A stretch of 64,000 bases of DNA from Flavobacteriaceae bacterium (GTDB taxonomy: Bacteria; Bacteroidota; Bacteroidia; Flavobacteriales; Flavobacteriaceae). Under the pieces are notes generated by a model. That model was not told the DNA's origin. It was given only the letters and a program-made list of their open reading frames with translations, and did not search any database. Each line of letters opens with the position of its first letter. The stretch's first letter is position 1. Location of the stretch: positions 27,134 to 91,133 of the forward strand of contig JAHEKV010000002.1 of assembly GCA_024638165.1 (NCBI GenBank), given 5' to 3'. The position numbers and the translations under genes were made by a program. Positions 2,343 to 20,333 of the stretch are shown one piece after another.

Positions 2343-3716
2343 TCAGTTCAATTGTTTTCGTGCGATTATTAGATATAGTACCCCGCTTAATATCCATGCC
2401 GGAGCTATTAGAAATGACAAGAAAATATCATAGGTGATAGATATGTAGTAAAAACATATTGGTGGTAGAATCCAAGATATAAGTACTTCTACATTGAGTC
2501 CATTGCTAGTGTAGGCTTTTATTCCCTTATCACCACGAAAGAAATGATTAAATACAATAATGGCTCCCATAGGTGCAAGAATAAAACCATACAGTGCTAC
2601 AAAATCTAATAACTTCATTGCAAATGCTGGAAATAACCCTGCAATGGTTGCTATTGAACCAGCAATCAGAGTAACTCTTACCGTTGAAAATCTCGGAAGA
2701 AGCGCCTGAAAAGCAAGACCTGCTCTATAAATGGTAGGGTTAGCCGTAGTCCATCCTGCAATAATAACAGCAATTATTCCAAAAACACCTATTGCATTAT
2801 ACGCTAGCGGACCTGGAGCTACAGAAGGGGCCTGGCCTTGATTTAGAAGTGCTTGAGCTTCTGGGGTTTTTATATATACGGCATAAAGAAGCGCTGCAGA
2901 AATCCAGGCCATATAATGCCCAACATACATTCCAGCTGCGCTAGTCCATCCCAAAGAAGCCTTTTTCGCAAACCTAAAAACACTTAAATCAGACATACCT
3001 ACATGCATTGCTCCGTTAGCAAACCATGACCAAATGGCTACATGCCAAAAAGTGTATTTGATTTGACCTGGAAAAGGTTCGGTCCCAGTACCCCAGACAT
3101 TCCAAAAATCATCAAAACTTGTAACGTTTAATTGTTTTAGTGCCACAAATCCACATGCCAAAAATGCAACAACAATAAATGGCGACATCCAATTTGCGGC
3201 CTTACTAACGGTCTCATAACCACGAGCGGCAATTATTGAAATAACCGCTCCAATACCAATAACAATAAAAACCCAGGTTAAACTGTTTGGAGTCGTGTCT
3301 GTTAGTTTCGGCATTTCAAGGCCAAAAGGGATTCCCACCGCTGTTGCTGACACTGTAATCATTGCTCCAGCCAAAAAACAGAATAGTACTCCATTTAAAA
3401 GATTATAAAAAACCACAAGCCGTTTACCACATATCTTTTCGAGATGATAATAAAGTGTCAGTCTGTGCTTTACTGCTATTTCAGCTGTTAAGAACCTCCA
3501 AGACAACACTGCTAATAAATTACCTAGAAGTAGTCCAATAATTAAATCAAAGGCGCTGACACCTACCGTTAAAAAAAGTGGGCCAATAACAAATTCTGTG
3601 CCGGCTGCATGTTCGCCAGCGTACATCCCCAAGAAGCTTTTCCATCCTCTTAGCTTATTATTTGGGACTGCCTCTCTTTCAAATTCACTTACTACCGTTT
3701 GTTCTTTAGAGCTCAT
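2343..3716 (-). CDS. NCS1-like (cytosine/purine permease type) transporter, candidate rhamnose-pathway permease
   Basis: A 457-residue polytopic membrane protein with about 12 hydrophobic segments. The N-terminal WKSFLGMYAGEHAAGTEFVIGPLF and the central ANGAMHVGMSDLSVFRFAKK are placed as in the NCS1 (nucleobase:cation symporter-1) family. It is the last gene of a four-gene operon with rhamnose isomerase, rhamnulokinase-like and lactate dehydrogenase genes (3-base gap to the last). No purine or pyrimidine gene is nearby, so a nucleobase substrate is unlikely. By context the best guess is uptake of L-rhamnose or of L-lactate. No RhaT-type symporter is encoded in the locus, although the truncated MFS porter at the window start is a rival candidate. 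Family membership fairly sure, substrate inferred. Confidence 0.75.
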   Translation of the reverse strand: MSSKEQTVVSEFEREAVPNNKLRGWKSFLGMYAGEHAAGTEFVIGPLFLTVGVSAFDLIIGLLLGNLLAVLSWRFLTAEIAVKHRLTLYYHLEKICGKRLVVFYNLLNGVLFCFLAGAMITVSATAVGIPFGLEMPKLTDTTPNSLTWVFIVIGIGAVISIIAARGYETVSKAANWMSPFIVVAFLACGFVALKQLNVTSFDDFWNVWGTGTEPFPGQIKYTFWHVAIWSWFANGAMHVGMSDLSVFRFAKKASLGWTSAAGMYVGHYMAWISAALLYAVYIKTPEAQALLNQGQAPSVAPGPLAYNAIGVFGIIAVIIAGWTTANPTIYRAGLAFQALLPRFSTVRVTLIAGSIATIAGLFPAFAMKLLDFVALYGFILAPMGAIIVFNHFFRGDKGIKAYTSNGLNVEVLISWILPPICFYYISITYDIFLSFLIAPAWILSGVLYLIIARKQLN

Positions 3717-6220: not shown

Positions 6221-7489
6221 TTACAGGCCAGTGGCTTTAGAATTAACTCCTCTCTCAGAAATTAATTTTTCTCTGATCTTATTCTCTCTAAAAGATTTTA
6301 TTGGGTCATACACTCCCCCTAGCTGAAGACGAGCTTCACGAACAAGAGCACGTACATCTGTCCTAAATGCTTCTTGTAAAATCTCTTGACACTGGGATAT
6401 ATCATTTCTATTCTGATAGAATGCCAATTCATTGTAATCTACCAATAAAGCTTGAGCATAAGCTATTTTAATAGCCTCAACAGACTGTAATAAATCCTCT
6501 AGCGGATCTTTAATGTTGTGACTCGCGTCAATCATCCAGCTAAGATCAAGGTTAGGGTCATCGTCCATTCCTTTTACTAATTCGCAAAAAATAAGAAACA
6601 GCTGATAAGGCTTAAGCGACCCTACGGTAATGTCATCGTCTCCATATTTACTATCGTTGAAATGAAAGCCTCCTAGTTTATTTTTAAACAGCAGTGTCGA
6701 GACTATTTGTTCAATATTTGTATTGGGTAAATGATGACCAAGATCCACCAGAGTCTTGGCCTGGTCACCTAGCTCACTCACTAATAGGTATGACGTTCCC
6801 CAATCTGGAATAACCATGGAGTAAAAATTAGGCTCATACGGCTTGTATTCAAGAAGCATTGTCCAGTCTGGAGGTAGGCTCGAATAAATCTCAGACAACG
6901 AGTCTAAGGTGCGATTTAAAGCTGATTTAAAATCGTGCTGTCCAGGAAATATACTTCCATCCGCTAACCATACAGTAAGAGCCTTAGACCCTAGATTTTC
7001 ACCGATCGAAATAACCTCTTTATTGTGATTTACAGCTAGTTGACGAACTTCTTTGTCTGTATGACATAAAGAGCCATACTTATACGAGTATGATTGGTTG
7101 GGTTGGTCTTGAAAGGTATTAGAATTAACTGCGTCGAATGACAGGTCAAGAGATTTTGCGAGCTTTTTTAATTCCTCTATGTTTTCTGCTTTATCCCAAG
7201 GTATGTGAAGACTTATAGAAGAGCTCGATTTATTGAGTCTATTCAACAACGCTACGTCCTCAATCTTTTGAGCCAAACTTGATGGCTCTCCTCCTCCTGG
7301 AAATCTTCCAAAACGCGTGCCTCCTGTACCAAGCGCCCAACTAGGAATAGCTATTTGCAACTGTTTAAGTTTACCTATGGCTCTTGAAACCTTATTCTCA
7401 TCCCCAACAGCGTCGACTACGCTAGAAATAGCTCTGCTGTGCTTACTCATCTCTTCTTTTGTGGATTGATTTAAGTCAATTTTTGTCAT
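6221..7489 (-). CDS. rhaI: L-rhamnose isomerase (RhaI type)
   Basis: A 422-residue TIM-barrel isomerase resembling the Pseudomonas/Streptomyces-type L-rhamnose isomerase, not enterobacterial RhaA. The metal ligands of that family can be placed: Glu214 in LLEYKPYEPNFY, Asp249 and His252 in VDLGHHLPNTN, His276, Asp284 and Asp286 in GFHFNDSKYGDDD, and Asp321 in WMIDASHN. It converts L-rhamnose to L-rhamnulose in the cytoplasm. It is the first gene of a minus-strand operon with rhaB, lldD and the permease gene, and diverges from an AraC regulator 94 bases away, which probably controls it. Members of this family also accept other aldoses, but the operon supports rhamnose. Confidence 0.9.
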   Translation of the reverse strand: MTKIDLNQSTKEEMSKHSRAISSVVDAVGDENKVSRAIGKLKQLQIAIPSWALGTGGTRFGRFPGGGEPSSLAQKIEDVALLNRLNKSSSSISLHIPWDKAENIEELKKLAKSLDLSFDAVNSNTFQDQPNQSYSYKYGSLCHTDKEVRQLAVNHNKEVISIGENLGSKALTVWLADGSIFPGQHDFKSALNRTLDSLSEIYSSLPPDWTMLLEYKPYEPNFYSMVIPDWGTSYLLVSELGDQAKTLVDLGHHLPNTNIEQIVSTLLFKNKLGGFHFNDSKYGDDDITVGSLKPYQLFLIFCELVKGMDDDPNLDLSWMIDASHNIKDPLEDLLQSVEAIKIAYAQALLVDYNELAFYQNRNDISQCQEILQEAFRTDVRALVREARLQLGGVYDPIKSFRENKIREKLISERGVNSKATGL

Positions 7490-7583
7490 TTTCTAATACA
7501 CATTTAAACAATCTGATTAATGTTACAACTATAATTTCTAGTATTTTTAAACAAAATGACTAGATGTTTATACTTTTTGACAA

Positions 7584-8459
7584 ATGAAAAAGTCATTCTC
7601 CTATTTATCACCTAGCGACAAAGACAAAGACTTTGGTCTTTACATCACTGTATCCGGTAATTATACCGCCTCCCCCTACTCCCCCTATCCTGAAAAAGGG
7701 CACCCTTCTGGCTATTATTTCGATTGGGAGACCGGGAGGACTATCGAAGAATATCAAATCATTTATGTAGCAGAAGGGGAAGGCTATTTAGAATACCAAC
7801 AAAAACATTTCACTATTGGCAAAGGTTCGGTTTTATTCATAAGACCCAACGAACATCACCGCTATCAACCGAAAAAAGAAACGGGTTGGACAGAGCATTA
7901 TGTAGGGTTTTCTGGCCAAATCGCTGATCGCGTTTTGCTAGGTTTGAAAAGCCAAGTTGTAATAGAGCTTGGAAACAGCATAAAAATTATCGAGTTGTTA
8001 AAAACAATCGAAACCCATGTAGAAAAGAAAAACCCTTCGTTTCAAAAGATTTGTGCCGGCCTATTAATAAATTTAATCGGACAGATCGAGGCCCAAACAA
8101 CAACCTCGTTGTTTGAAAACAAAAAAGTTTTAAGTCTTATTGAAAATACAATCAAAACAATGCAAGAAAATGTTAATCAAGAATTGAACTTTGAACATCT
8201 GGCTACAGGTTATGGGATGAGCTATTCACATTTTCGCCAGTCTTTTAAATTGTATACCGGTCTTTCTCCTCACGCGTATTTTATAGACCTAAAAATACAA
8301 GAGTCGAAGCGCCAAATTCTCAGCACTTCAAAAAACATGACAGAGATTGCCTATGACTTGGGCTTTAACTCTCTTCAATACTTTAGCAAGCTATTTAAAA
8401 AAAGAGTTGGCGTTTCTCCTCAAAACTATAGACGCCCAAGAAGCGCTGAGTTCTTATAG
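7584..8459 (+). CDS. AraC-family transcriptional regulator of the rhamnose locus
   Basis: A 291-residue regulator with an N-terminal cupin-like sensing domain (about residues 25-130, with EYQIIYVAEGEGYLEYQ and FIRPNEHHRYQPKKE) and a C-terminal AraC double helix-turn-helix (about 185-285). The latter ends in the classic segment AYDLGFNSLQYFSKLFKKRVGVSPQNYRR. It is divergent to rhaI and upstream of the esterase gene, so it probably senses rhamnose or a related sugar and activates one or both sides. AraC proteins usually bind direct repeats, and the decamer repeats just after this gene (8469-8498) and before susC are candidate sites. The effector is inferred. Confidence 0.88.
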   Translation: MKKSFSYLSPSDKDKDFGLYITVSGNYTASPYSPYPEKGHPSGYYFDWETGRTIEEYQIIYVAEGEGYLEYQQKHFTIGKGSVLFIRPNEHHRYQPKKETGWTEHYVGFSGQIADRVLLGLKSQVVIELGNSIKIIELLKTIETHVEKKNPSFQKICAGLLINLIGQIEAQTTTSLFENKKVLSLIENTIKTMQENVNQELNFEHLATGYGMSYSHFRQSFKLYTGLSPHAYFIDLKIQESKRQILSTSKNMTEIAYDLGFNSLQYFSKLFKKRVGVSPQNYRRPRSAEFL

Positions 8460-8468
8460 CCTCATTGT

Positions 8469-8498
8469 CAGGACAGAACAGGATAGAGCAAGGGATGT
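8469..8498 (+). promoter_or_regulatory. Candidate operator: three 10-bp-phased CAGGATAG-like units before the esterase gene
   Basis: Three successive decamers, CAGGACAGAA, CAGGATAGAG and CAAGGGATGT, run in phase with one helical turn and end directly before a TATATTTTA element (8499-8507) that can serve as the -7 hexamer region. The ATG of the esterase gene follows at 8532. The same unit occurs twice before susC in the same orientation, so this is probably an activator site of the rhamnose regulon. Confidence 0.55.
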
Positions 8499-8531
8499 TA
8501 TATTTTAAATTGATCAATAAATTAAAAAGTC

Positions 8532-9785
8532 ATGAAATCTAATTTTTACATTATTCTCTTTTGTTTAACAGCTGTTTTTCAACTGAGTAATGCACAGAAA
8601 AACTATAACTTAATTGTAGAGGGGTTTGATTGGGGGCCTGCGGTTAGCAAGGTTGTTCTAGAGCTCAATGAAGAAATCAAAGAGCCAATAAATTATCAAA
8701 ACTTCAGTGTTAACGCTAGACGTGGCCCGATAAATGATATTAAGGTGAGTCCTTCAAATGGCGAAAGAAGAGTTATTAATTCTTATGTCTCAACTCCTAA
8801 TGGGGTAAGAACACAGGTAAGTAACTTTTTGACTCTAGTTTTAGAAGTAGGTCCTACAGTTTCAATTGCTAACCCTTTTCAATATTCGAGAGGTAATCAT
8901 TGGGTTGATTATAAGCTCTCAATAGTTGACAAAATTAGTCTAGATCACTGGGGTTCTGAAAAAGAACGATTTATACCTCTTGTAGACGAATTTGATTTGT
9001 CCGGCATTTTCAAGGGGGTGAATTCTGGAAAAGAAATACACTATGCCGCATATGACCCAAAGTCACCTGAGAAAAAACCTTTAATCATTTGGCTACATGG
9101 TGGCGGTGAAGGGGGAGAAGACCCTACTATTCCTCTTCTGGGCAATAAAGCAGCAAATTATGCCTCAAAAGAAATCCAAAGTCTGTTTGGGGGAGCACAT
9201 GTCTTGATTCCACAAAGCCCTACACGATGGATGGATAGCGGGTCAGGTACTACAAGAGGAGAGAAGGATGATATTTATTTCAAAGACATCAAGGCGTTAA
9301 TCGAGACTTACATCAAAAATAACAACGTGGATGAAAGTAAAATCTATGTTGGTGGATGCAGCAATGGAGGATATCTAAGTCTAAAACTACTTCTAGAATA
9401 TCCTGATCTTTTCGCGGCTGGCTACATTAGCGCTTTAGCATTTTGGGCCGAAAACGTCACAGATTCACAATTAGAAAAAATAAAAGATAAACCTATCTGG
9501 TTCATTCATTCAAAGGACGACAACACAACAGATGCCGAAAGTACTGCGATACCAGTATATAATCGACTAATGGATTTAGGCGCCAAGGACATTCACCTTT
9601 CTCTTTATGATCACGTTATAGACATTACTGGGGCCTACGGTGGGAAGCAGTTTCACTATCCAGGACACTGGTCTTGGATTTATTCTCATGCGAATAAAAG
9701 CTACTTAGACTATGATGGAAAGCCTGTTTTACAAAAAGGTGTGCCCGTAAACCTAATGCAGTGGATGTCCTCAAAAAAGTTATAA
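8532..9785 (+). CDS. Secreted alpha/beta-hydrolase (esterase or peptidase-like) with N-terminal Ig-like region
   Basis: A 417-residue exported protein: signal peptide at 1-21 (ending LSNAQ), an Ig-like beta region at about 25-135 resembling that of EstA-type esterases, and an alpha/beta-hydrolase domain from about 160. The oxyanion loop is WLHGGGEGGE (187-196), the nucleophile elbow GCSNGG gives Ser277, and the catalytic histidine is probably that in YPGHWSW near the C-terminus. It belongs to the predicted-peptidase/PHB-depolymerase-like esterases found in polysaccharide loci. Its place in a rhamnose locus, with a promoter repeat shared with susC, suggests removal of acyl groups from a rhamnose-containing glycan outside the cytoplasm. 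This role is inferred. Confidence 0.8.
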   Translation: MKSNFYIILFCLTAVFQLSNAQKNYNLIVEGFDWGPAVSKVVLELNEEIKEPINYQNFSVNARRGPINDIKVSPSNGERRVINSYVSTPNGVRTQVSNFLTLVLEVGPTVSIANPFQYSRGNHWVDYKLSIVDKISLDHWGSEKERFIPLVDEFDLSGIFKGVNSGKEIHYAAYDPKSPEKKPLIIWLHGGGEGGEDPTIPLLGNKAANYASKEIQSLFGGAHVLIPQSPTRWMDSGSGTTRGEKDDIYFKDIKALIETYIKNNNVDESKIYVGGCSNGGYLSLKLLLEYPDLFAAGYISALAFWAENVTDSQLEKIKDKPIWFIHSKDDNTTDAESTAIPVYNRLMDLGAKDIHLSLYDHVIDITGAYGGKQFHYPGHWSWIYSHANKSYLDYDGKPVLQKGVPVNLMQWMSSKKL

Positions 9786-9833: not shown

Positions 9834-12194
9834 CTAAAGATTCAACCTATTTACTCCCTGTTTTAAAAGCGACTCTTTTCCTTTCCATACAAAGATCCCT
9901 TCTACACCCTCTGGCAAACTAATGTCAGCTTTGAGCCCGTTCTTTGTTTGTTTATAATCCACTTTGATTTCTCCATTAGGGTGTGGCATGGTCCCTGAAA
10001 TTTTATCGAAGTCATCAATGTTGGGTTGTATCAACACTTTAGAAAACTGTGGTGCGGCACTTTGAATTCCAAGTATAATTCTAAAAAACTCAATGTTCGG
10101 GCTCGCTCCCCAAGCATGGGCATCCGATCTTGTAGTAAGTACTTGTGAAGTCTCCCCCCAAGTCGTCATTCCCAAGTCAATATACTCTCGCCAAACATCT
10201 AGCCACTCTAAATAATCATTTCCAAGACCTGCTTCAGCTAAGGCTAAGTGCAGGTAGTAACTAAAATATATGGAAGCCGACGCGAGGTCTTTCTCCTCTA
10301 GCATAGCTTTAGCTATTCCTTTTGCTTTTTCTGCGTCAACTAATCCTGCTAAAATTGCTAATGAATTGGCGTGTTGAGAATAAAGCTCTTTTTTCGGGGT
10401 GTCTGCAAATAACCCTCGTTTTTCATCCCAATATTTGGACATAATTACATCCCTTAGGCCTTCTGCATACTTTTCATAAAGCTTCATATAAGATTCTTCT
10501 CCTACATTTTTCTCGAGCTCAACAGCAGCCATTAAAGCGTGAAGCATTTGAAGGTCAAGAACTGCAGACGAGCCATCGTCACTCATTGGCCCCGTACCTC
10601 TAGACCATTCAGGAACCCAGTCTGTGTAATTCCATCCTGGAATGTTTTTTATTGAACCATCATCCTCCATGAATGAAATGAAATAGTTCATGATTTGTCG
10701 AGATCCTAACAGCTTATCCTTTACAAAATCTAAATCCTTCCCATACAACATGTAATCATAAAGGGTACTTACATGCCACAAGGAATACGTAGGAATGACT
10801 TGGTTTTGGGTGTCTGGATATCTACTTAAGGTAAAACCATCTGGCTGTCTTGATTGATCAATTAAATTAATCGCGTTTTTAGCAAGTCTGTCATCTCCTG
10901 TATTGTAATACGAAACAAACATCTGAATCCTCGTATCTCCCACGTACTGAAGTCTTTCGTAAAAAGGACAATCCATGTAGGTGTCAACAGCGCATAATCG
11001 AGATGTTCTCCATCCAATTTCCATGATTTTATCCATTTCTTCGGTCCCCGAATCTAAAGACGCTTTCATTTCAAAAGGATAACCCACAAAAGTGCCATAA
11101 ACATCGTTTACAACAAGAGGCTCTTCCTTAGTCTCAACTTCTACTTGTACGTATCTAAAGGTTCTATACGATAGTGATGTAAACTCCTGAGAGTCTAATC
11201 CATTGGAGGTTATACTATCTACACGACCTATAAAGATCTTGTCTTCAACTTCATCTCGATTTCCCTTACTTCGATTTCTGTCCCCATCCTTTTCGTATAG
11301 ACTTTCTGCATAACGCAGACGAATCAAGGCGTCCTTTCCCCCGCTAAACTTCAAAGAGAAAAAAGCATTAGTTAAATAATCTTGGTCTAATAAAATAGTT
11401 GCTGTTTTATTCTGAGGAATTACAACTTCTGTTGGCTCTTTGAGGAAACTCTTTGGAAGTTTAACGTTTGAAGCTCTTCGGGCACGAGAAAGTCTTTCTT
11501 TCTTAAGCTCCATATTAGGGAGAATTGATTGCTGAAGTTGCCACCCGGATCTTCTCATAAATCCAAATCCGCTAGTGGACTCACCAAAAATCAACGTAGC
11601 ATTTTCCCAATTAGTGTCATCGTAAGAGGCTTTTTTCCAATCTGCTGAAACCGCCTTGTTCATGTCCACATATTGCCCTGCTCCTGCAGCATAATAGCCT
11701 GGAACACTTTGACGTATCGGCTGGAAGCTTTTATCTTCAATGACCTTCCAAGACTCATCAGAGTTTATGGCGACTGCGTTCTCCTCATGAGCCTGTATAA
11801 GTAATGCTGTTCTGTAAGAAAACTGATTTACGGGCTTAAACGCCCCTTCATTCCAAACCTCAACAGCAATAGCGTTGTTTCCAGTTTTTAAATACGGAGC
11901 GAGATCAACAACTTCATAATTCCAGTGTTGTAAATCCCCTATTGATGGGCCAATACCTACTAGTTCTTCGTTTACAAACAATTTGAATCGATTGTCTGCA
12001 GAAATTTTAACTTGAAATGTGTCTGGAACCTCAAGAATATTAATTTTCTTTCTAAATAGAAGAAGCGACTCCTCGGTAGGCTCTACACTAGCTGAGGTAA
12101 TCCACTTCGTGGTCCACTCGGGAGGGCGGTTCCCAAATTGAGCATTAGTATTAAACACAAACAATGCGCTTAAAAGAATAAAGAAATGTTTCAT
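9834..12194 (-). CDS. Secreted GH78 alpha-L-rhamnosidase
   Basis: A 786-residue glycoside hydrolase with a signal peptide (1-19, ending NTNAQ). N-terminal beta-sandwich domains (about 25-380) include a galactose-binding-like fold with DNRFKLFVNEELVG. The (alpha/alpha)6 catalytic domain follows (about 385-720), and a C-terminal beta domain ends the protein. In GH78 the general acid is the Glu of the DCPxxxER motif; here DCPFYERLQYVGD puts it at Glu413. The second catalytic carboxylate is Glu681 in TTWGET. It removes terminal alpha-L-rhamnose from glycans or glycosides outside the inner membrane. It follows susC and susD on the same strand, separated from susD by a strong hairpin, and supplies rhamnose to the cytoplasmic pathway encoded nearby. 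Confidence 0.93.
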   Translation of the reverse strand: MKHFFILLSALFVFNTNAQFGNRPPEWTTKWITSASVEPTEESLLLFRKKINILEVPDTFQVKISADNRFKLFVNEELVGIGPSIGDLQHWNYEVVDLAPYLKTGNNAIAVEVWNEGAFKPVNQFSYRTALLIQAHEENAVAINSDESWKVIEDKSFQPIRQSVPGYYAAGAGQYVDMNKAVSADWKKASYDDTNWENATLIFGESTSGFGFMRRSGWQLQQSILPNMELKKERLSRARRASNVKLPKSFLKEPTEVVIPQNKTATILLDQDYLTNAFFSLKFSGGKDALIRLRYAESLYEKDGDRNRSKGNRDEVEDKIFIGRVDSITSNGLDSQEFTSLSYRTFRYVQVEVETKEEPLVVNDVYGTFVGYPFEMKASLDSGTEEMDKIMEIGWRTSRLCAVDTYMDCPFYERLQYVGDTRIQMFVSYYNTGDDRLAKNAINLIDQSRQPDGFTLSRYPDTQNQVIPTYSLWHVSTLYDYMLYGKDLDFVKDKLLGSRQIMNYFISFMEDDGSIKNIPGWNYTDWVPEWSRGTGPMSDDGSSAVLDLQMLHALMAAVELEKNVGEESYMKLYEKYAEGLRDVIMSKYWDEKRGLFADTPKKELYSQHANSLAILAGLVDAEKAKGIAKAMLEEKDLASASIYFSYYLHLALAEAGLGNDYLEWLDVWREYIDLGMTTWGETSQVLTTRSDAHAWGASPNIEFFRIILGIQSAAPQFSKVLIQPNIDDFDKISGTMPHPNGEIKVDYKQTKNGLKADISLPEGVEGIFVWKGKESLLKQGVNRLNL

Positions 12195-12312: not shown

Positions 12313-13824
12313 CTAATCGATATTTGGGTTCAACGCCGCTTCAGCAGTAGGGATTTCAAAATCTGTGATAATATTTGTTAATGTCCCTGAAGGTGGATTT
12401 GTTCCTGGAGGGAAATAATAAGACTGTGGATTAGATCTAATATTCTCGCCCATTTGTTGCATAACGTTAGTCAGCTTCCCAAATCTTTTTAAGTCAAGAT
12501 ATCGTTTTGCCTCAAATGCTAGCTCAAGCCTTCTTTCATTTAAAAGGTGCTCCTCCGTTAAAGAATTAAGCGCCTCTAAACCTGCACGTAATCTGATATC
12601 ATTAACGTGTTGTAGCGCTTGAGGGCTACTTGAGTTTTGTCTAAATAGTGCCTCTGCCATTAATAGTTTTGCTTCAGCATATCTATATACTGGCCAATTA
12701 TCGTCCGCTTGACCCCAATTTGCATGAGGATGTAAAAACTTAGACACAAAAGGATGGTCTGGAGCATCTCCTTGCTCAACCGGATAATTAGCTGAATTTT
12801 CGATTTCAGTCCACTGAATCGATGCAGAATATCGATCATCATTTTCTTGGTCGAAGGCAGCTAGAATCTCTGGACTTGGTAGGTTGAAGGCTTGTCTGTT
12901 ATTGTCTTCTTGAGGATTACTAACACCTAATATACGAGCGTTGGTTTCCACACTTAAAGGAACCGGTAACCAGTCATAAACGAAACTACTGGCATACCCC
13001 TGATTTCCTTCTAAATATTGAGCCTCGAAAATAGATTCTATTCCGTTTTTATTCGCTGGATCAAAAGCATCACTATAGTTAGAGGCTAATCCTAAACCTG
13101 CAGCTCCTATAACATTGTTTAATGCAGACTCCGCTTGAGACCACTCTCCTAAAACAAGGTGTACATTTCCTAACAAGGTATAAGCCGCTTCTTTAGTTGC
13201 CCGTCCCTTTTCTTGAGTACCTTTTGAAGGCAAACTAGATACAGCAAATGCCAAATCCTCTTTAATCAATGAATAAATCTCAGCTTCAGTCGCTGCTGGT
13301 TGACGAGTTTCAATAAAACTTGAGGCCGGTACGGTTACTAGTGGAATTTCGCCGAAGTATTGCACCAAATCAAAGTAAATCAATGCTCGAAGAAATTTTG
13401 CTTCAGCCTCTTTTGGTCCTGAAAATGAAGAATCAAATCGATTTTGCTCAGCACCAATGTTAAATGCTTCTATTGCCTGGTTAGCTCTTGCAATCAGGAC
13501 GTAGCTAGCTCTAAATTTCTCTGCAATATTCGGGTTTGCTCTAACCCAATTATGATTTGCAATTTGTTCTTCATCTTCTACGTCACCTCTACTGATATTC
13601 AGTGCATAATACGTATTGTCAGATGCGAAATCTCCAAACATCCAGGCAATATTATAAATGTCTGGTAGTGCGGCATAAACTCCATTTATTGCAGCTTCCA
13701 TATCGGATTCTGTCATGAAGTAGTTCCCTGTAGTTAAATCCATTTCAGAATTGATGTCTAAGATTTCATCTGAACAAGAAAACAGGGCTAGTGTCAGAAA
13801 TAATGTGTAAAATATATTTTTCAT
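12313..13824 (-). CDS. susD: SusD/RagB-family outer-membrane glycan-binding lipoprotein
   Basis: The start at 13824 gives a lipoprotein signal (MKNIFYTLFLTLALFSC) with the acylated Cys followed by SDE; a longer frame to 13869 would run into susC and is rejected. The mature protein of about 485 residues shows SusD features: an N-terminal segment with TGNYFMTESDMEAAINGVY, helical TPR-like stretches (AEAKFLRALIYFDLVQYFGEIPLV) and the C-terminal NDIRLRAGL...ERRLELAFEAKRYLDLKRFG. It sits on the cell surface over the SusC channel and binds the glycan before import. It follows susC by 19 bases. The glycan is presumably rhamnose-containing, judged from the GH78 gene and pathway around it. Confidence 0.93.
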   Translation of the reverse strand: MKNIFYTLFLTLALFSCSDEILDINSEMDLTTGNYFMTESDMEAAINGVYAALPDIYNIAWMFGDFASDNTYYALNISRGDVEDEEQIANHNWVRANPNIAEKFRASYVLIARANQAIEAFNIGAEQNRFDSSFSGPKEAEAKFLRALIYFDLVQYFGEIPLVTVPASSFIETRQPAATEAEIYSLIKEDLAFAVSSLPSKGTQEKGRATKEAAYTLLGNVHLVLGEWSQAESALNNVIGAAGLGLASNYSDAFDPANKNGIESIFEAQYLEGNQGYASSFVYDWLPVPLSVETNARILGVSNPQEDNNRQAFNLPSPEILAAFDQENDDRYSASIQWTEIENSANYPVEQGDAPDHPFVSKFLHPHANWGQADDNWPVYRYAEAKLLMAEALFRQNSSSPQALQHVNDIRLRAGLEALNSLTEEHLLNERRLELAFEAKRYLDLKRFGKLTNVMQQMGENIRSNPQSYYFPPGTNPPSGTLTNIITDFEIPTAEAALNPNID

Positions 13825-13843
13825 TTCGATGCGATTTTTCAAG

Positions 13844-16800
13844 TTATTTAACACCAATATTGATACCAAATGTGATGGTTCTTGGGACAGGATACGTTGC
13901 GAAATCTTGTCCTTGATTAAATGTATCTGTACCTCCTACTTCTGGATTAGAACCTGGATAGTCAGTAAATACAAAAGCTTGATTAATAGAAGAATAGAGT
14001 CTTAGGCTTCTTATTCCCTTAAGCGATTCTGAAGGGAAATTGTATCCCAGAGTAATATTCTTGATGGTGAAAAAACTACCATCATAAATAAAGTTTGAGC
14101 TAATCCAGTCTCTATCCTGAGGAGCTGTCGAGCCATAGTTTTTACCCCAATTTCCAGATCCAGGATCAGAAGGCGTCCAACGATCCTTTAACTCAGCAAG
14201 AACATTAAACAAACCATCTCCGTGATTAACTAATCCTTGTAAGGATCTTCTAAAAATATCGTTACCATGTGTTCCTGAACCAACTATAGATAAATCGAAA
14301 TTGTTATATCTAAAGTTTGCAGTTAAGCCATAAATAAAGTCTGGGATTGGGTTTCCTATAACAGTGGAGTCGTCTGAACCAGGGGCCCCAGAATTACCAT
14401 CCCAGGTAATAACTCCATCACCATTCACGTCTTCATATTTTGGACCACCTACTTGGGAAATATTCGCTACGGGGCTATTTGCAAAATCTGAATCATTAAC
14501 ATAAACACCTGTATGATTTAAACCATAAAATTGAGCAACTGGCTGTCCAACAAGTGTTATTGTTTGATTATTAATTATAAAAGGAACTGTATCATCTAAT
14601 TTCAGAACCTCATTTTGATTGAACGAAATGTTACCTCCTAAATCGTACTCTAAAGCTCCAATATTACCTTTAGCATTTAACATAAATTCGTGTCCCCAGA
14701 ATTTTATCTCCCCAACGTTTCCAGTAAAGGATGAGAATCCAGATGCTGGTGGAACAGCAAGAGACCAAAGTAGGTCAGAAGAGACTTTATTATAATAGTC
14801 ATAAGTAAAACTTACTCTGTCATTAAATAAAGTTAAATCAACACCTAAATCGAATTGATTTGAAGTCTCCCATCCTAAAGTACTATTTGCAATAGTTGTT
14901 GCAGCAGCCCCTGGTACAATTGTACTTCCAAAAACAGTACTTTGACCTATATCCACAGCTCCGTATTGAGTATAGTTTCCAATTGCATTGTTTCCAGTAA
15001 TACCCCAACTAGATCTAATTTTTGCAAAACTCACCGGACCAAGATCAAAATCTTCTGAAAGAATCCAACCTGCAGATAATGAAGGGAAGTTACCCCAACG
15101 ATTTTCTGAACCAAATCTTGAAGATCCATCTCTTCTTATAGCCGCAGAAAACAAATATTTTCCTTGGTAATCATAGGTCAATTTGGACAAGTAAGAAATA
15201 AGAGACCATTCGCCTATAGTATTTGATGGCACACCTGGCCTGGTAGCAGATTGTAAAGTTGTAATCCTATCATCGGCATGAGCTTGGGCACTAGCTAAAA
15301 GTCCCTCCTCGCGATATTTTTGGACTGAATATCCTGCTAGAATATTTAAATTATGATCTCCAAAAGAATTATCATAGGTCAACAAACTCTCTGCTAACCA
15401 TGATTGATAGTTGTTTTTCTCAATGGTCATCGATGAATTTCGAGGCACAGATTGCCATGGATTGGGTGCTACATCACTAGGTATGAAATTTGAGTTATTC
15501 ACCGTGCCCAAATCAACGCTTGCACTTGACTTGAAAGTCAAGTTTGGAGTAATATTAGCTGACGCATATGCATTAGAAAGCATTCTGAATGTTTGCGTCT
15601 CTTGTTGACGATTATTCAGATTGTAGTAAAAATTTGGCCATGGCCATGCTGTATACGTTCGAGTTGGATCCAGAACTCTATCAATCTCCCCATCTCCATC
15701 CTTATCTTGATAAGGGCTAAAAATTGGTGGGGTTAACATAGCATTGTAAATGATATTTCCTTGCCAAAAATTTCCTGATGTTGGAACAAGGTTACTCACT
15801 GTAAAGGATGGTGCTGCATTTACCCCTACCTCTAACCAATCAGAAACCGTATAATCAGAATTAATACGTAGTGAGAATCTTTCGAGACCTGTATTTATAA
15901 CTGTTCCCTCTTGTGAAAAATAGCCTAGTACAGCTGTTGCTCGAGAAGATGATGTATTCGAAGAAAAAGTAACACTAAGATCTGTCATTGGTGCATCTCT
16001 AGTAATTTCTCTTAACCAGTTTGTTCCTTCTCCATACTGAGATGGGTTTTGGAATGCATCAGGGACAGGAAGCCCTTGATCTTCGAAAGCTTCTTTACGC
16101 ATTTGAACCCACTCTGTGGCGTTTAATAGTGGCTGCTCTCGGTTATAAGGTAATTGTTGAATTCCTCTGTAGAGATTAACATTTACAGAAGTCCCAGGCG
16201 CCTTACCTCTTTTGGTTGTTATTAAAACTACACCATTAGTCGCCCTAGAACCATAAAGAGCTGTTGAAGCGGCATCTTTAAGAACTGTAAGGGTTTCTAT
16301 TTCGTTTGGGTTAATAGTATTGATTCCGCCCGTAATAGGTTGACCGTCAATAACGTACAATGGATCACTTCCTGCAGATAAAGAAATTTGACCTCGAATC
16401 CTAACTTTCAAAGCTTCTCCAGGAGCACCGGTACTCTGATTAATTTGAACTCCTGCTAACCTACCCTGAAGCTTTTGTGTTAATTGAGCAGCCGGAGACT
16501 CTTCAAAAGAAGAAGCAGAAATACTCTGAATAGCTCCTGTAACTTTTTTCTCAATTTGTGTTCCGTAGCCGACAACTACAATTTCATCTAGCAAGGCTAC
16601 ATCTTCCTCTAAACTTACATTGATGGTGGTTCTTCCGTTAACGATTTGATCAACCGTTTTAAACCCAATAAAAATGAAACTTAATGTTGTCTTTTCGTCA
16701 GCAGCCGGTATCGATATGGTGTAATTACCGTCAAAGTCTGTGACCGCTCCAATTGCTGTCCCTTTAACTATAACGTTAACCCCATAGATAGGCTCACCAG

Positions 16801-16915
16801 CATTGTCTGTTACCGTACCTGAAACTTCTGTACTTTGTGCAGATACAAAAGAAGTGACCAGGCACAACAAAAGGGTCCAATATAATGCCCTTAAGGTTTT
16901 AAGTTTGCTCATCAT
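13844..16915 (-). CDS. susC: SusC/RagA-family TonB-dependent outer-membrane transporter
   Basis: A 1023-residue TonB-dependent receptor with a signal peptide (ending SFVSAQ) and an N-terminal carboxypeptidase-regulatory-like domain (VSGTVTDNAGEPIYGVNVIVKGT, about 30-110). A TonB-box-like region at LLDEIVVVGYGTQ is followed by the plug (about 115-230, with VRIRGQISLSAGSDPLYVIDGQPI) and a 22-strand barrel ending in a strand close to FGINIGVK. It imports oligosaccharides captured by the SusD partner using TonB energy. It is first in the susC-susD-GH78 group. Two perfect decamer repeats 55-75 bases upstream of its start codon are shared with the esterase promoter. The GntR-type regulator gene lies just upstream on the same strand. 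Confidence 0.95.
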   Translation of the reverse strand: MMSKLKTLRALYWTLLLCLVTSFVSAQSTEVSGTVTDNAGEPIYGVNVIVKGTAIGAVTDFDGNYTISIPAADEKTTLSFIFIGFKTVDQIVNGRTTINVSLEEDVALLDEIVVVGYGTQIEKKVTGAIQSISASSFEESPAAQLTQKLQGRLAGVQINQSTGAPGEALKVRIRGQISLSAGSDPLYVIDGQPITGGINTINPNEIETLTVLKDAASTALYGSRATNGVVLITTKRGKAPGTSVNVNLYRGIQQLPYNREQPLLNATEWVQMRKEAFEDQGLPVPDAFQNPSQYGEGTNWLREITRDAPMTDLSVTFSSNTSSSRATAVLGYFSQEGTVINTGLERFSLRINSDYTVSDWLEVGVNAAPSFTVSNLVPTSGNFWQGNIIYNAMLTPPIFSPYQDKDGDGEIDRVLDPTRTYTAWPWPNFYYNLNNRQQETQTFRMLSNAYASANITPNLTFKSSASVDLGTVNNSNFIPSDVAPNPWQSVPRNSSMTIEKNNYQSWLAESLLTYDNSFGDHNLNILAGYSVQKYREEGLLASAQAHADDRITTLQSATRPGVPSNTIGEWSLISYLSKLTYDYQGKYLFSAAIRRDGSSRFGSENRWGNFPSLSAGWILSEDFDLGPVSFAKIRSSWGITGNNAIGNYTQYGAVDIGQSTVFGSTIVPGAAATTIANSTLGWETSNQFDLGVDLTLFNDRVSFTYDYYNKVSSDLLWSLAVPPASGFSSFTGNVGEIKFWGHEFMLNAKGNIGALEYDLGGNISFNQNEVLKLDDTVPFIINNQTITLVGQPVAQFYGLNHTGVYVNDSDFANSPVANISQVGGPKYEDVNGDGVITWDGNSGAPGSDDSTVIGNPIPDFIYGLTANFRYNNFDLSIVGSGTHGNDIFRRSLQGLVNHGDGLFNVLAELKDRWTPSDPGSGNWGKNYGSTAPQDRDWISSNFIYDGSFFTIKNITLGYNFPSESLKGIRSLRLYSSINQAFVFTDYPGSNPEVGGTDTFNQGQDFATYPVPRTITFGINIGVK

Positions 16916-16970
16916 AATCCGTTTTTTTAGTTAGTTATGGTGATGAAATAACCTAATAATAGGCGTTAAA

Positions 16971-16990
16971 CTATCCTGCCCTATCCTGCA
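16971..16990 (-). promoter_or_regulatory. Candidate operator: tandem CAGGATAG decamers before susC
   Basis: Read on the minus strand, two adjacent decamers carry CAGGATAG in exact 10-bp phase (plus strand: CTATCCTGCC then CTATCCTGCA). They end 55 bases before the susC start and keep the same orientation to the gene as the related units before the esterase gene. A binding site for the AraC or GntR regulator is the likeliest reading. Confidence 0.6.
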
Positions 16991-17053: not shown

Positions 17054-18118
17054 CTAAAGAGAATTTCTTAAAATAAGGCCAAACCTGTTTTTTTGATGAA
17101 TTTTTTTAGAATTCAAAATTGACTCAGCGGTTAGCCGGCCCATCTCTTTGAAGTCTGTAGAAATAACTGTTATTCCATTCTCAAGAACCTCTTTTAACTC
17201 TGTGTCATTATAGGATATAACACCAATGTCTCGTCCGACGGTCAAGCCGCTCTGTCTAGCTAATTTTATTAATTTCGTCAACTCGCTTTCGCTTATAACA
17301 ACATAAACGCTTCCTTTTTTTAGTTTTTTTATTTCGTTTACGCTTGATATTATGCTGTATTGGTGTTGATGTTGGGAACAAAACTTCAAAAAACCTCTAA
17401 CGATTTCTTTAGGATATGGATAGGTGTTGTTGTCAGGAAAAACCAAATTTACCTCCTGATACTTTTCTAAAATGTGGTTTGTTTCAGAAAGAGCTTCGTA
17501 AATATCTTCGTTAAAATCTTGGTAAATAGACGAAAAACACTCTGTCATCCCATCAGGAAGATAGTCCAAGACTATCAACTTGTCTTTAGATATTTTACTA
17601 AGGGTATTGTTTAGTTCGGATGGTTGATATTCAGTAAAGTGAGGCATTATCACGTAGTAGTGATAGTCGCTGCTGTTTTCGGTCAAAATATCATTAAACA
17701 TTCTGAAGTCGCAATGAAATATGCGTAGGCTTATATTTGCGACATCTTCTAGTTCATGAGCCAAGGCATTATAGATTTCCTTCTTATAAGCACTCAGTTT
17801 ATTAAATAAGACTAAAACTTTAAGTTTTTGATCTGGCAATTTCGTTGAGATGAAGTAACCCAGCCCCCTTGAAGAGACAATTATTTCTGATTTTTTTAAT
17901 TCGGCATAAGCTTTTTCAATAGTGTCTCTTGAAAGCAAGTAGTACGTACTTAACTGATTGATTGAGGGTAGTTTTTGTCCCGGTTCTATAACGCCTCTGT
18001 TAACCTTGGTGATGATGCTCTTAGCAATTTGCTTGTATTTTGGAATCGTTGTGTTCTCTGATAATTCCAATGTAAAAAACTCTACTAAATCTTCCATATA
18101 ATCCATATCTGCAGACAA
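17054..18118 (-). CDS. GntR-type regulator with LacI-like ligand-binding domain
   Basis: A 354-residue regulator with an N-terminal GntR winged helix-turn-helix (about residues 20-90: IAKSIITKVNRGVIEPGQKLPSINQL then SRDTIEKAYAELKKSEIIVSSRGLGYFI). Its C-terminal periplasmic-binding-protein-like domain (about 98-350) has the LacI-type pattern GLTVGRDIGVISYNDTELKEVLENGITVISTDFKEMGRLTAE. This fusion is typical of Bacteroidota sugar regulators. It lies upstream of susC on the same strand and divergent (112 bases) to the rhaD fusion gene, so it probably controls these in response to rhamnose or an intermediate. Alternative starts at residues 5 and 8 are possible. Confidence 0.88.
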   Translation of the reverse strand: MSADMDYMEDLVEFFTLELSENTTIPKYKQIAKSIITKVNRGVIEPGQKLPSINQLSTYYLLSRDTIEKAYAELKKSEIIVSSRGLGYFISTKLPDQKLKVLVLFNKLSAYKKEIYNALAHELEDVANISLRIFHCDFRMFNDILTENSSDYHYYVIMPHFTEYQPSELNNTLSKISKDKLIVLDYLPDGMTECFSSIYQDFNEDIYEALSETNHILEKYQEVNLVFPDNNTYPYPKEIVRGFLKFCSQHQHQYSIISSVNEIKKLKKGSVYVVISESELTKLIKLARQSGLTVGRDIGVISYNDTELKEVLENGITVISTDFKEMGRLTAESILNSKKIHQKNRFGLILRNSL

Positions 18119-18156: not shown

Positions 18157-18185
18157 CAGTAAAGTGCAGGAAGGTTATATCTTTA
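18157..18185 (+). promoter_or_regulatory. Promoter of the aldolase fusion gene with weak decamer repeats
   Basis: Two decamers, CAGTAAAGTG and CAGGAAGGTT, lie in 10-bp phase and run into ATATCTTTAA, a near match (7 of 8) to the TAnnTTTG -7 element at 18178-18185. The arrangement parallels the esterase promoter, where the repeat is also followed by GTTATATTTTAA. The match to CAGGATAG is imperfect, so this is the weakest of the three candidate sites. Confidence 0.4.
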
Positions 18186-18230
18186 ATAGATTTTAGTTTT
18201 ACATTAAAATCGCAATCACCAATACCACTT

Positions 18231-20333
18231 ATGGAGACTTTTAACTTTAAACACGTCGACTTTCTCTGGAACAAATCAAAAGCTAAAGAAATAGAAGGAA
18301 ATGAATTAGAACTGTTCCTGTATCGTTCTAACATTCTTGGAGCAGATCTTAGAATTACAAATTTTGGAGGGGGAAATACAAGTTGTAAGACGTACGAAAA
18401 AGATCCACTTACAGGTGAAAACGTTGAGGTAATGTGGATCAAAGGATCTGGCGGTGACATTGGGTCTCTGAAAAGGGACGGTATAGCCGGGTTATATGTT
18501 GATAAGTTAAGGGCTCTTAAGAAAATCTATCGTGGTCTAGAACACGAAGATGAAATGGTTCAACTTTTCAATCATTGTATTTACGACCTTGACTCTAAAG
18601 CCCCTTCTATTGACACGCCTCTTCATGCGATGCTCCCGTTTAAACATATTGATCATCTTCATCCAGATGCAGCGATTGCAATTGCCGCGTCCAAAGACGG
18701 TGAGAAAATTGTGAAAGAATTATATGGCGATGATTTTGCATGGATACCATGGCAAAGGCCCGGGTTTGACTTATCTCTAAAGTTAGAAAAAGCCATCTTA
18801 AAAAACCCAAACCTAAAAGGTCTTTACCTAGGAGGACACGGATTATTTACTTGGGGAGAAACCTCCTACGAGTGCTACATAAATTCATTGGAAACGATTG
18901 AAAGGGCAAGTCAATTTTTAGAAAGTAACTACGGTAAAAAGAGGCCGGTCTTTGGAGGCATTTCGGTTAATCCCTTAGAAGAAAATCGTCGAAAGTCTCA
19001 AGCATCGAAAATTATGCCTTTATTGAGAGGGCTTTTATCTGAAGGTGAGATGAAGGTTGGTCATTTTGCCGACAACTCAACTGTATTAGAGTTTATAAAT
19101 AGTAAGGACTTAGAGAGACTAGCTCCTATGGGAACTAGTTGTCCGGATCACTTTTTAAGAACAAAAATCAGCCCCTTGGTAATAAATCTTGATCCAAATC
19201 AAGATTTATCTGATGTCTCATTGTTAAACGAAAAGCTTAAGAGCTCCGTTGAAGGGTACAAAGCTCTTTACACAGAATATTATACTAATCACAAACGCCC
19301 CAATAGTCCAGGAATGAGAGACCCTTATCCTGTGATTATAGTTTGGCCTGGAGTTGGTATGTTCTCTTTTGCCAAGAACAAACAGACAGCGAGGGTCGCT
19401 TCAGAATTTTATATCAATGCCATTAATGTAATGAAGGGGGCTGAAGCGGTTTCAGAATATGTTTCATTACCGCTTCAAGAAGCGTTTGACATAGAGTATT
19501 GGCTGTTAGAAGAGGCTAAACTACAACGCATGCCTAAAGAAGCAAGTCTGTCTAGAAAGGTAGCAATTGTTACCGGTTCAGCTGGCGGTATAGGCAAGGC
19601 TATTGCTGAAAAATTTATCTCCGAGGGCGCGTGTGTTGTATTAGCTGATATAGATAATACTAGACTAGAGGAGACATTAAAGGGCTTTCCTAAAGAGTTA
19701 ACAAGATCCTATTGTTTAGATATAACAAAAACCGAGTCAATTGAACGGTTGTTTGATTTTTGCTCGTTAGAGTTTGGGGGGGTAGATGTCCTTGTAAACT
19801 CAGCGGGTCTGGCAATTTCAAAACCTCTTAATGAAACAAGTAACGAGGATTACTTGTTACTAATGGATGTTCTTGTCAAAGGGCAACTAAATATTTGCAA
19901 AAAAGTCGCGGAAATCATGACAATTCAAAAGCTTGGAGGAGACATTGTTAATATTGCAAGTAAAAACGGTCTCGTTTCTGGCCCGAATAATGTCGTTTAC
20001 GGCACCGCCAAAGCCTCTCAGCAACACATGAGTAGACTCCTTGCAGCAGAACTAGGGCAGCATAACATTCGAGTAAATATTGTAAATCCAGATGCTGTTA
20101 TTGAGGGCAGCAATATATGGGAAGGAGAGTGGGCTGAGGGCCGAGCTAAAGCTTATGGGATTGAAGTAAAAGACCTTCCATCCTTCTATGCGAAAAGAAC
20201 CTTACTCAACAAAATCATTGGAACTAAGGACCTTGCGGACGCTGTATTATGCTTTGTCAACGGAAGTCTTTCCAAATCAACAGGTAATATGATCAATGTT
20301 GATGGGGGTGTACCAGCAGCTTTTGTTCGTTAA
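18231..20333 (+). CDS. rhaD: Bifunctional rhamnulose-1-phosphate aldolase / L-lactaldehyde dehydrogenase (SDR)
   Basis: A 700-residue fusion. Residues about 25-430 form a class II aldolase domain with GGGNTSCK (46-53), zinc ligands in HIDHLHPD (His142, His144) and GGHG (His203). Residues about 441-700 form a short-chain dehydrogenase with TGSAGGIG (448-455), NSAG (523-526), Ser577, Tyr590 and Lys594 (YGTAK). This matches the RhaE-W type known from Bacillus and Bacteroidota: the aldolase cuts L-rhamnulose-1-phosphate to DHAP and L-lactaldehyde, and the dehydrogenase oxidises the lactaldehyde to L-lactate with NAD. It is divergent to the GntR gene and stands alone on its strand. With rhaI, rhaB and lldD it completes a route from rhamnose to DHAP and pyruvate. 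Confidence 0.93.
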   Translation: METFNFKHVDFLWNKSKAKEIEGNELELFLYRSNILGADLRITNFGGGNTSCKTYEKDPLTGENVEVMWIKGSGGDIGSLKRDGIAGLYVDKLRALKKIYRGLEHEDEMVQLFNHCIYDLDSKAPSIDTPLHAMLPFKHIDHLHPDAAIAIAASKDGEKIVKELYGDDFAWIPWQRPGFDLSLKLEKAILKNPNLKGLYLGGHGLFTWGETSYECYINSLETIERASQFLESNYGKKRPVFGGISVNPLEENRRKSQASKIMPLLRGLLSEGEMKVGHFADNSTVLEFINSKDLERLAPMGTSCPDHFLRTKISPLVINLDPNQDLSDVSLLNEKLKSSVEGYKALYTEYYTNHKRPNSPGMRDPYPVIIVWPGVGMFSFAKNKQTARVASEFYINAINVMKGAEAVSEYVSLPLQEAFDIEYWLLEEAKLQRMPKEASLSRKVAIVTGSAGGIGKAIAEKFISEGACVVLADIDNTRLEETLKGFPKELTRSYCLDITKTESIERLFDFCSLEFGGVDVLVNSAGLAISKPLNETSNEDYLLLMDVLVKGQLNICKKVAEIMTIQKLGGDIVNIASKNGLVSGPNNVVYGTAKASQQHMSRLLAAELGQHNIRVNIVNPDAVIEGSNIWEGEWAEGRAKAYGIEVKDLPSFYAKRTLLNKIIGTKDLADAVLCFVNGSLSKSTGNMINVDGGVPAAFVR

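Follow-up and report, generated by a model that had tools for sequence, protein, structure and literature searches.

A 10-bp direct repeat phased to the -7 box of rhamnose-locus promoters as the probable operator of a GntR/LacI-type regulator in Flavobacteriaceae

Three promoters in the rhamnose locus of a Flavobacteriaceae bacterium carry a tandem of two similar units, directly repeated with a 10-bp period, and in each of them a predicted -7 box starts 19 nt past the second unit. Computational analysis of related genomes shows that the same repeat keeps this phasing, follows a single type of regulator gene, precedes genes for the use of rhamnose-containing glycans and has changed once together with the recognition helix of the regulator. 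The locus lies in a DNA stretch of 64,000 nucleotides, called here the window. On the whole, the tandem is quite probably the operator of the GntR/LacI-type protein encoded at 17054-18118, which would serve as a class II activator of the three promoters. We suggest that this protein is rhamnose-responsive and could be named RhaR for its function, though not for its descent. Two GntR winged-helix domains would be bound head-to-tail in adjacent major grooves on one face of the DNA. Their units would lie at about -49 to -42 and -39 to -32, which is the position of a would-be -33 element. The inducer-bound regulator would then touch RNA polymerase, probably at sigma region 4, and activate transcription in the way PhoB does at the Pho box. 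The promoters controlled in its own genome would be those of susC-susD-GH78, of a secreted esterase and of rhaEW. Binding of the tandem by this protein is well supported by comparative sequence evidence, from which we infer the physical contact. The head-to-tail arrangement and the choice of activation over repression, the latter from the fixed spacing, are likewise deduced, and L-rhamnose or a derivative of it would be the inducer.

The sites were scored with a full-element matrix, which comprises the tandem, the 19 nt and the -7 box; its training set excluded the window. The features are listed by coordinates and strand.

7584-8459, plus strand: AraC-type (RhaS-like) regulator, rejected as the binder of the tandem
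8469-8486, plus strand: esterase tandem site CAGGACAG-AA-CAGGATAG (CAGGACAGAACAGGATAG), one mismatch, full-element score 34.2
8506-8513, plus strand: predicted esterase -7 box TAAATTGA, 19 nt past the tandem
8532-9785, plus strand: secreted esterase (PF18435 and alpha/beta hydrolase families), predicted target
9834-12194, minus strand: GH78 alpha-L-rhamnosidase, probably in the susC operon, judging by strand and position
12313-13869, minus strand: susD, assigned to the susC operon by strand and overlap
13844-16915, minus strand: susC, a TonB-dependent transporter (TIGR04056, E=4.6e-243), first gene of a predicted target operon
16944-16951, minus strand: predicted susC -7 box TTATTTCA, 19 nt past the tandem, a poor match to TAnnTTTG
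16971-16988, minus strand: susC tandem site CAGGATAG-GG-CAGGATAG, exact, full-element score 34.4, the best in the window
17054-18118, minus strand: regulator with a GntR winged helix (residues 27-90, PF00392) and a LacI-type sugar-binding domain (PF13377)
18157-18174, plus strand: rhaEW tandem site CAGTAAAG-TG-CAGGAAGG, third and degenerate, full-element score 22.5
18194-18201, plus strand: predicted rhaEW -7 box TAGTTTTA, 19 nt past the third tandem
18231-20333, plus strand: rhaEW-type bifunctional rhamnulose-1-phosphate aldolase/dehydrogenase (TIGR02632, E=1.4e-278), predicted target

The rhaEW gene is divergent from the regulator gene. The locus also holds a rhamnose isomerase-like gene, an FGGY kinase and an FMN-dependent dehydrogenase.

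The original prediction placed a tandem of decamers 55-75 bases before susC. The tandem is indeed there: the CAGGATAG units occupy 16981-16988 and 16971-16978 on the minus strand with a period of 10, and the 18-mer ends 55 nt upstream of the susC ATG at 16915. The span was off by two bases, as the decamers cover 16969-16988. Three further decamers with the same orientation and period were proposed at 8469-8498 before the esterase gene. The first two are real, and this tandem ends 45 nt upstream of the ATG at 8532. The letters of the third, CAAGGGATGT, are present but fall in the spacer, which carries near-zero information in 113 intergenic relatives. Since the spacer is almost free of sequence information, CAAGGGATGT is not a third unit of the element. 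Nor does the repeat run into the -7 region, as was thought, because 19 nt separate the second unit from the -7 box. The degenerate tandem before rhaEW had been overlooked. As for the poorly matching susC box, its register is that in which TAATTTCA is present in some relatives.

All three sites of the window (the third spanning 18157-18201 with its box) scored above the Markov control, whose highest score over 20 Markov-resampled windows was 13.5. The organism's own assembly comprises 1.74 Mb in 56 contigs. There, the pattern CAGGATAG-NN-CAGGATAG at up to two mismatches has three matches: susC with none, the esterase with one, and one within an ORF with two. Thus, no other match at up to one mismatch exists in these 1.74 Mb besides susC and the esterase, and the reversed pattern gave 0 matches. 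A wider pattern at up to one mismatch finds five places, namely the three promoters, one in an ORF (score 9.7) and one scoring below 8. All three promoter-quality sites found in this genome are within the rhamnose locus. A chance test confined to the window is weaker, as two matches at up to three mismatches were also reached by 8 of 100 shuffles. In a family sample of 397 Flavobacteriaceae genomes, the tandem pattern at up to one mismatch gave 121 matches in 56 genomes, versus 4 for the reversed pattern. A chance, mobile or low-complexity repeat without a regulatory role would agree with the single CAGGATAG units found elsewhere in the window's coding sequence and with the few tandem matches inside ORFs of other genomes. 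It does not agree with the count of 121 versus 4, the fixed promoter phasing and the coherent targets, and it is ruled out by the reversed-pattern, reversed-matrix and Markov controls; we give it practically no weight. The single units lie without a partner on the minus strand at 7685-7692 (AraC coding sequence) and 14112-14119 (susC coding sequence), and they are probably there by chance.

The position of the -7 box was assessed in the surroundings of the family sites. A re-scan of these fetched regions recovered the 121 sites, the window's two among them. Leaving out eight sites flagged as lying within an ORF gave 113 intergenic sites. The sites of G315 and G299 were kept among them. One of the left-out sites, L127, is probably a genuine promoter, with a box close to the consensus at 19 nt. 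It turned out that TAnnTTTG (at least 5 of 6 bases) starts exactly 19 nt past the second unit in 77 of the 113 sites, and the other 36 have no such box at this distance. The other offsets are rare: 18 nt and 20 nt occur three times each, 29 nt seven times, and the rest 0 to 4 times. An offset of 29 nt is one unit further on, as with longer arrays. The offset was free in this test because the sites had been selected on the tandem alone, though the search at up to one mismatch artificially sharpened the motif. Upstream of rhaEW in regulator-positive genomes, a search on the tandem alone finds one in 29 of 34 regions, each of them followed by the -7 box at 19 nt. The fetched regions contain 137 same-strand unit pairs at the 10-bp period, a count inflated by their having been picked for holding a tandem, and no more than two inverted pairs at any spacing, a count that this choice does not affect. 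A palindromic operator is thereby ruled out. The period of 10 also departs from the direct repeat of about 21 bp of AraC-family operators.

We also examined 80 loci from Flavobacteriaceae, Cyclobacteriaceae, Runella, Dyadobacter, Chryseobacterium, Saprospiraceae and others. This set is not independent of the family sample, since several genomes are common to both and the family sample also served to train the matrix. It holds 91 intergenic tandems in 53 loci and two in ORFs; the reversed-matrix control gave one match. The -7 box stands at 19 nt in 65 of the 91. At the threshold used, intergenic tandems are missing from the remaining 27 loci, including all five of Runella. Of the window's nearest relatives, L261, L262, L264, L265 and G020 have degenerate units, and in the closest one, L257 (58%), the distance to the -7 box is 18 nt.

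In mapped flavobacterial promoters, the TAnnTTTG box is placed at -12 to -5 (PMC9723704, PMC6847099), and the consensus -33 element is given as TTTG (PMC6847099, PMC2483708). A -7 box at -12 to -5 puts the two units at the promoter positions stated above; by the same reckoning, transcription would start at about 16939 (minus strand) for susC, 8518 (plus strand) for the esterase and 18206 (plus strand) for rhaEW. In the 113 intergenic sites, neither the repeat nor its flanks show a conserved -33 element resembling TTTG. A one-turn direct repeat that is rigidly phased to the -7 box and replaces the -33 element is the signature of a class II activator, and both the overlap with the -33/-35 region and the constant distance to the -7/-10 box are found here. 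An activator touching one face of the DNA had been proposed from the outset. This idea is supported: the one-turn repeat is shared by the relatives, with the 10-bp pairs and the 19-nt phasing, and the activator role is suggested by the fixed spacing of tandem and box. Alternatively, the GntR-type protein could bind the tandem as a repressor, so that the operator covers the promoter until rhamnose releases it. Of the solved relatives that match this protein best, most of those with a named function are repressors (AraR 4egy, YvoA, LacI), the tandem overlaps the core promoter, and the flavobacterial -33 element is often weak anyway. The F. johnsoniae study finds the -33 motif far less pronounced across the promoters of this species in general (PMC6847099), so its absence here does not prove that an activator is needed. 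But a blocking site needs no fixed distance of 19 nt, which nevertheless holds in most sites overall and in every rhaEW tandem, and the lack of a conserved -33 element at the repeat also speaks against blocking. Repression is therefore unlikely, though it is the most serious competitor of activation. The constant distance to the -7 box further resembles a bipartite promoter, in which the tandem would be an upstream element for an alternative sigma factor and no regulator site. This is highly improbable: TAnnTTTG is the usual -7 box of sigma-A, the arrays with more than two units in L124 and L319 are unlike a -35 element, and the sites follow the GntR protein.

The distribution of the sites among genomes points to the GntR/LacI-type protein as the binder. 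We defined a close GntR homologue by E<1e-71, a line set after the list was seen, and found one in 88 of the 397 genomes. Promoter-placed tandems occur in 48 of these 88 genomes versus 0 of the 309 without it. Eight genomes had been excluded as chance, six with the match within an ORF (G001, G012, G032, G111, G288, G309) and two with no downstream gene start (G315, G299); of these, G001 does carry the close regulator, and without the exclusions 49 of 56 site genomes hold it. The other 40 regulator-positive genomes have no promoter tandem at up to one mismatch, and many of those tested have a weaker tandem at rhaEW. The rhaEW gene itself is present in 94 of the 397 genomes (E<=1e-150), 87 of them with the close regulator, and by coordinates the two genes adjoin in many genomes, e.g., G163, G110 and G196. 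The rhaEW gene follows the sites almost as closely as the regulator does (48 of 94 versus 48 of 88). The rhaEW upstream regions were compared in 40 of the 94 genomes, 34 regulator-positive and six of the seven regulator-negative (G298 was out). The full-element score is at least 19 in 29 of the 34 and at best -3.7 in the six, where the region of L179 comprises only 473 bases and ends at a contig end. The five exceptions are G222, G357, G384 and G037, which belong to the clade with a changed recognition helix described below, and G020, whose first unit is degenerate.

The original prediction named a GntR-type or an unusual AraC protein as the binder. For the GntR type this agrees with the data, a close homologue being present in 48 of the 48 genomes with promoter tandems; for AraC it does not. 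A single AraC monomer suits a pair of consecutive grooves at a distance of 10 bp. In this way, the AraC-type protein (7584-8459) could read the two decamers with its two helix-turn-helix motifs; it is RhaS-like, and its gene stands just before the esterase site. However, its homologue (E<=1e-50) is found in only 17 of the 397 genomes, is present in 12 of the 48 with promoter tandems and is missing from 36, and the AraC-positive genomes G207 and G291, without a close GntR homologue, have no tandem at up to one mismatch. In addition, the operator changes along with the GntR helix. On the phyletic profile we ruled out this protein as the tandem binder, and its involvement seems very improbable.

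Outside the family, the GntR/LacI-type protein and the tandem also occur together. A phylum sample of 188 genomes gave 19 tandem matches, all inspected there except those of G127 and G000, which had been seen earlier. The regulator (E<=1.5e-70) is present in 14 genomes outside the family. Promoter-placed sites were found in G403 and G564, so the tandem-regulator system extends beyond the family; G552 is ambiguous, and G468 has a weaker site before a rhaEW-sized gene. The matches in G514, G490 and the genomes without a close regulator are inside ORFs. Genes for another GntR/LacI-type subfamily, which shares 31-33% identity with the window's protein, lie near tandems in L097, L108, L122 and L166. 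In L122 and L166 these are the first genes behind the tandem, which suggests a regulatory cascade.

The recognition helix and the operator have changed together. Seven regulators carry SRDT[VI]VRAY or a near variant (SRDTVVKAY in G108) instead of SRDT[VI]EKAY. In all seven loci, a CAGAAC-type tandem stands by the regulator or the rhaEW gene, matching at 10 to 12 of 12 bases and perfectly in four. It keeps both the period and the distance of 19 nt to a -7-like box, of which at least 4 of 6 bases agree. For the CAGGAT type these loci score only 8 of 12. Among 40 EKAY loci, a perfect CAGAAC tandem occurs in none and a score of 10 of 12 for CAGAAC in six, while 30 score 10 or 11 for CAGGAT. The CAGAAC variant was sought only after examples had been seen. 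A branch with support 100/99 sets the seven VRAY-type regulators apart from the rest, so the co-change counts once, not seven times. Over 14 whole genomes, the CAGAAC tandem at up to one mismatch is not enriched, with 20 matches versus 23 for the reversed control. Only the four exact matches are telling, all of which are at the regulator locus in four genomes of the VRAY clade. In the alignment with AraR, the glutamate that has changed is paired with the second arginine of SRHTIRKA, which we take to be a DNA-contacting residue.

The N-terminus of the regulator matches PF00392 (E=5.2e-11; 42.5 bits versus a cut-off of 27), as expected of a GntR winged helix, and the C-terminus matches PF13377 (E=2e-9; 38.2 bits versus 26.5), as expected of a LacI fold. 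The structure model (pLDDT 85.5) resembles the LacI-family PDB chains of RbsR, LacI and PurR. It places the recognition helix at residues 64-76 and a lower-confidence interdomain link at about 91-98. Judging by the model, this link could permit head-to-tail DNA-binding domains beneath a symmetric sensor dimer. GntR and LacI relatives such as AraR are usually repressors with palindromic sites. AraR of Bacillus subtilis has a LacI-type sensor, and its operators are palindromes. The window's regulator shares with it the combination of a GntR DNA-binding domain and a LacI-type sensor and the role in sugar catabolism, and 4egy aligns with residues 15-90 (helix SRDTIEKA in the window, SRHTIRKA in AraR). 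It differs in that AraR is a named repressor, whereas the operator here consists of direct repeats that keep a constant distance from the promoter.

In its geometry, the site resembles the Pho box, where PhoB is the best-known example of such a class II activator. PMC3413638 describes PhoB and the related PhoP as binding direct repeats with head-to-tail domains, in place of the -35 element and in contact with sigma, and the repeats here likewise stand in place of the -35/-33 element. PhoB, however, belongs to the OmpR/PhoB family and responds to phosphorylation, unlike a GntR protein with a sugar sensor, a Bacteroidota sigma and its -7 box. PMC5320631 states that GntR proteins generally bind inverted repeats and that the MocR type (GabR, PdxR, TauR) often binds direct repeats and activates, divergent from its target. 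The GntR domain is common to both, but MocR proteins have an aminotransferase-like sensor. MocR models match only the N-terminal 106 residues of the window's regulator and its sensor is of the LacI type, so it is not a MocR protein. The predicted operators of the DeoR-family RhaR are also two imperfect direct repeats with a 10-11 bp period at rhamnose genes (PMC3870299). The proteins differ, those being DeoR and the window's being GntR; the DeoR family is absent from the regulator's listed Pfam and NCBIfam matches at E<=0.001, and neither 'GntR' nor 'Flavobacteri' occurs in the main text of that paper. Rhamnose regulation in Bacteroidota is also represented by RhaR of Bacteroides thetaiotaomicron, which is of the AraC family (PMC3878776); its predicted operator is a direct repeat of 21-bp period.

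The nameable genes behind the sites mostly fit a rhamnose theme. Among 105 distinct first genes after intergenic tandems, 28 encode SusC, 14 GH78-like proteins (the product of one, when scanned, is a sulfatase fusion) and three rhaEW. The other clusters, as far as representatives were scanned, contain PL28 ulvan lyases, proteins with a PLH30 ulvan-lyase trefoil domain, GH106, GH28, an RGL11 rhamnogalacturonan lyase, GH88, a sulfatase and a RhaT symporter. Some genes are off-theme by name (O-antigen ligase-like, fasciclin, alginate lyase family), and several have no telling domain. Most nameable first genes thus act on rhamnose-containing glycans or on rhamnose. An equal frequency at unrelated promoters, which would have spoken against a common site, was not seen, the discarded matches being in ORFs or without a downstream gene. 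It is somewhat more probable than an even chance that a wide group of Bacteroidota uses a non-MocR regulator of GntR type with a LacI-type sensor as a Pho-box-style class II activator, its tandem repeats replacing the -33 element at exactly 19 nt from the sigma-A -7 box, and that a single regulon unites rhamnose catabolism with ulvan lyases, rhamnosidases, rhamnogalacturonases and SusCD. For marine polysaccharide loci, the regulator is in most cases a guess based on the neighbouring genes. Here, the motif, the exact promoter geometry and the likely regulator are named together from sequence across many genera. The resulting rule (tandem, 19 nt, TAnnTTTG) is searchable and predicts rhamnose-responsive loci in seaweed-degrading bacteria. 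It also raises a mechanistic question: does a GntR/LacI-type protein, usually a repressor at palindromes, activate from direct repeats in the place of the -33 element? No earlier description of this regulon was found in the literature searched, which mostly did not extend to subscription journals, and the papers listed for CAGGATAG were unrelated by title and start of abstract.

Other observations concern the locus and its relatives. The rhamnose isomerase-like operon (6221-7489, minus strand) is divergent from the AraC gene and has no tandem site at 7460-7600; in the relative L091, the isomerase and kinase come after rhaEW. In the window, rhamnose control may be split between two regulators. 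A 457-aa protein encoded at 2343-3716 (minus strand) matches no Pfam or NCBIfam family and contains about ten hydrophobic segments. In L091, L261, L264 and L265, homologues with 68-69% identity are encoded close to the genes for the regulator and the FMN dehydrogenase. The protein is a candidate transporter. Among the three genomes sampled from the window's genus, the regulator and the sites are confined to that of the window; G280 has rhaEW only and G064 none of these. Because of this patchy presence, the locus may be a recent gain or loss. Arrays of five or six decamers with a 10-bp period stand before one promoter in L124 (about 7905-7965) and in L319 (about 2817-2875). A divergent promoter between a sulfatase gene and a DUF5722 gene in L116 (about 8012-8052) contains a pair of tandem sites arranged face to face.
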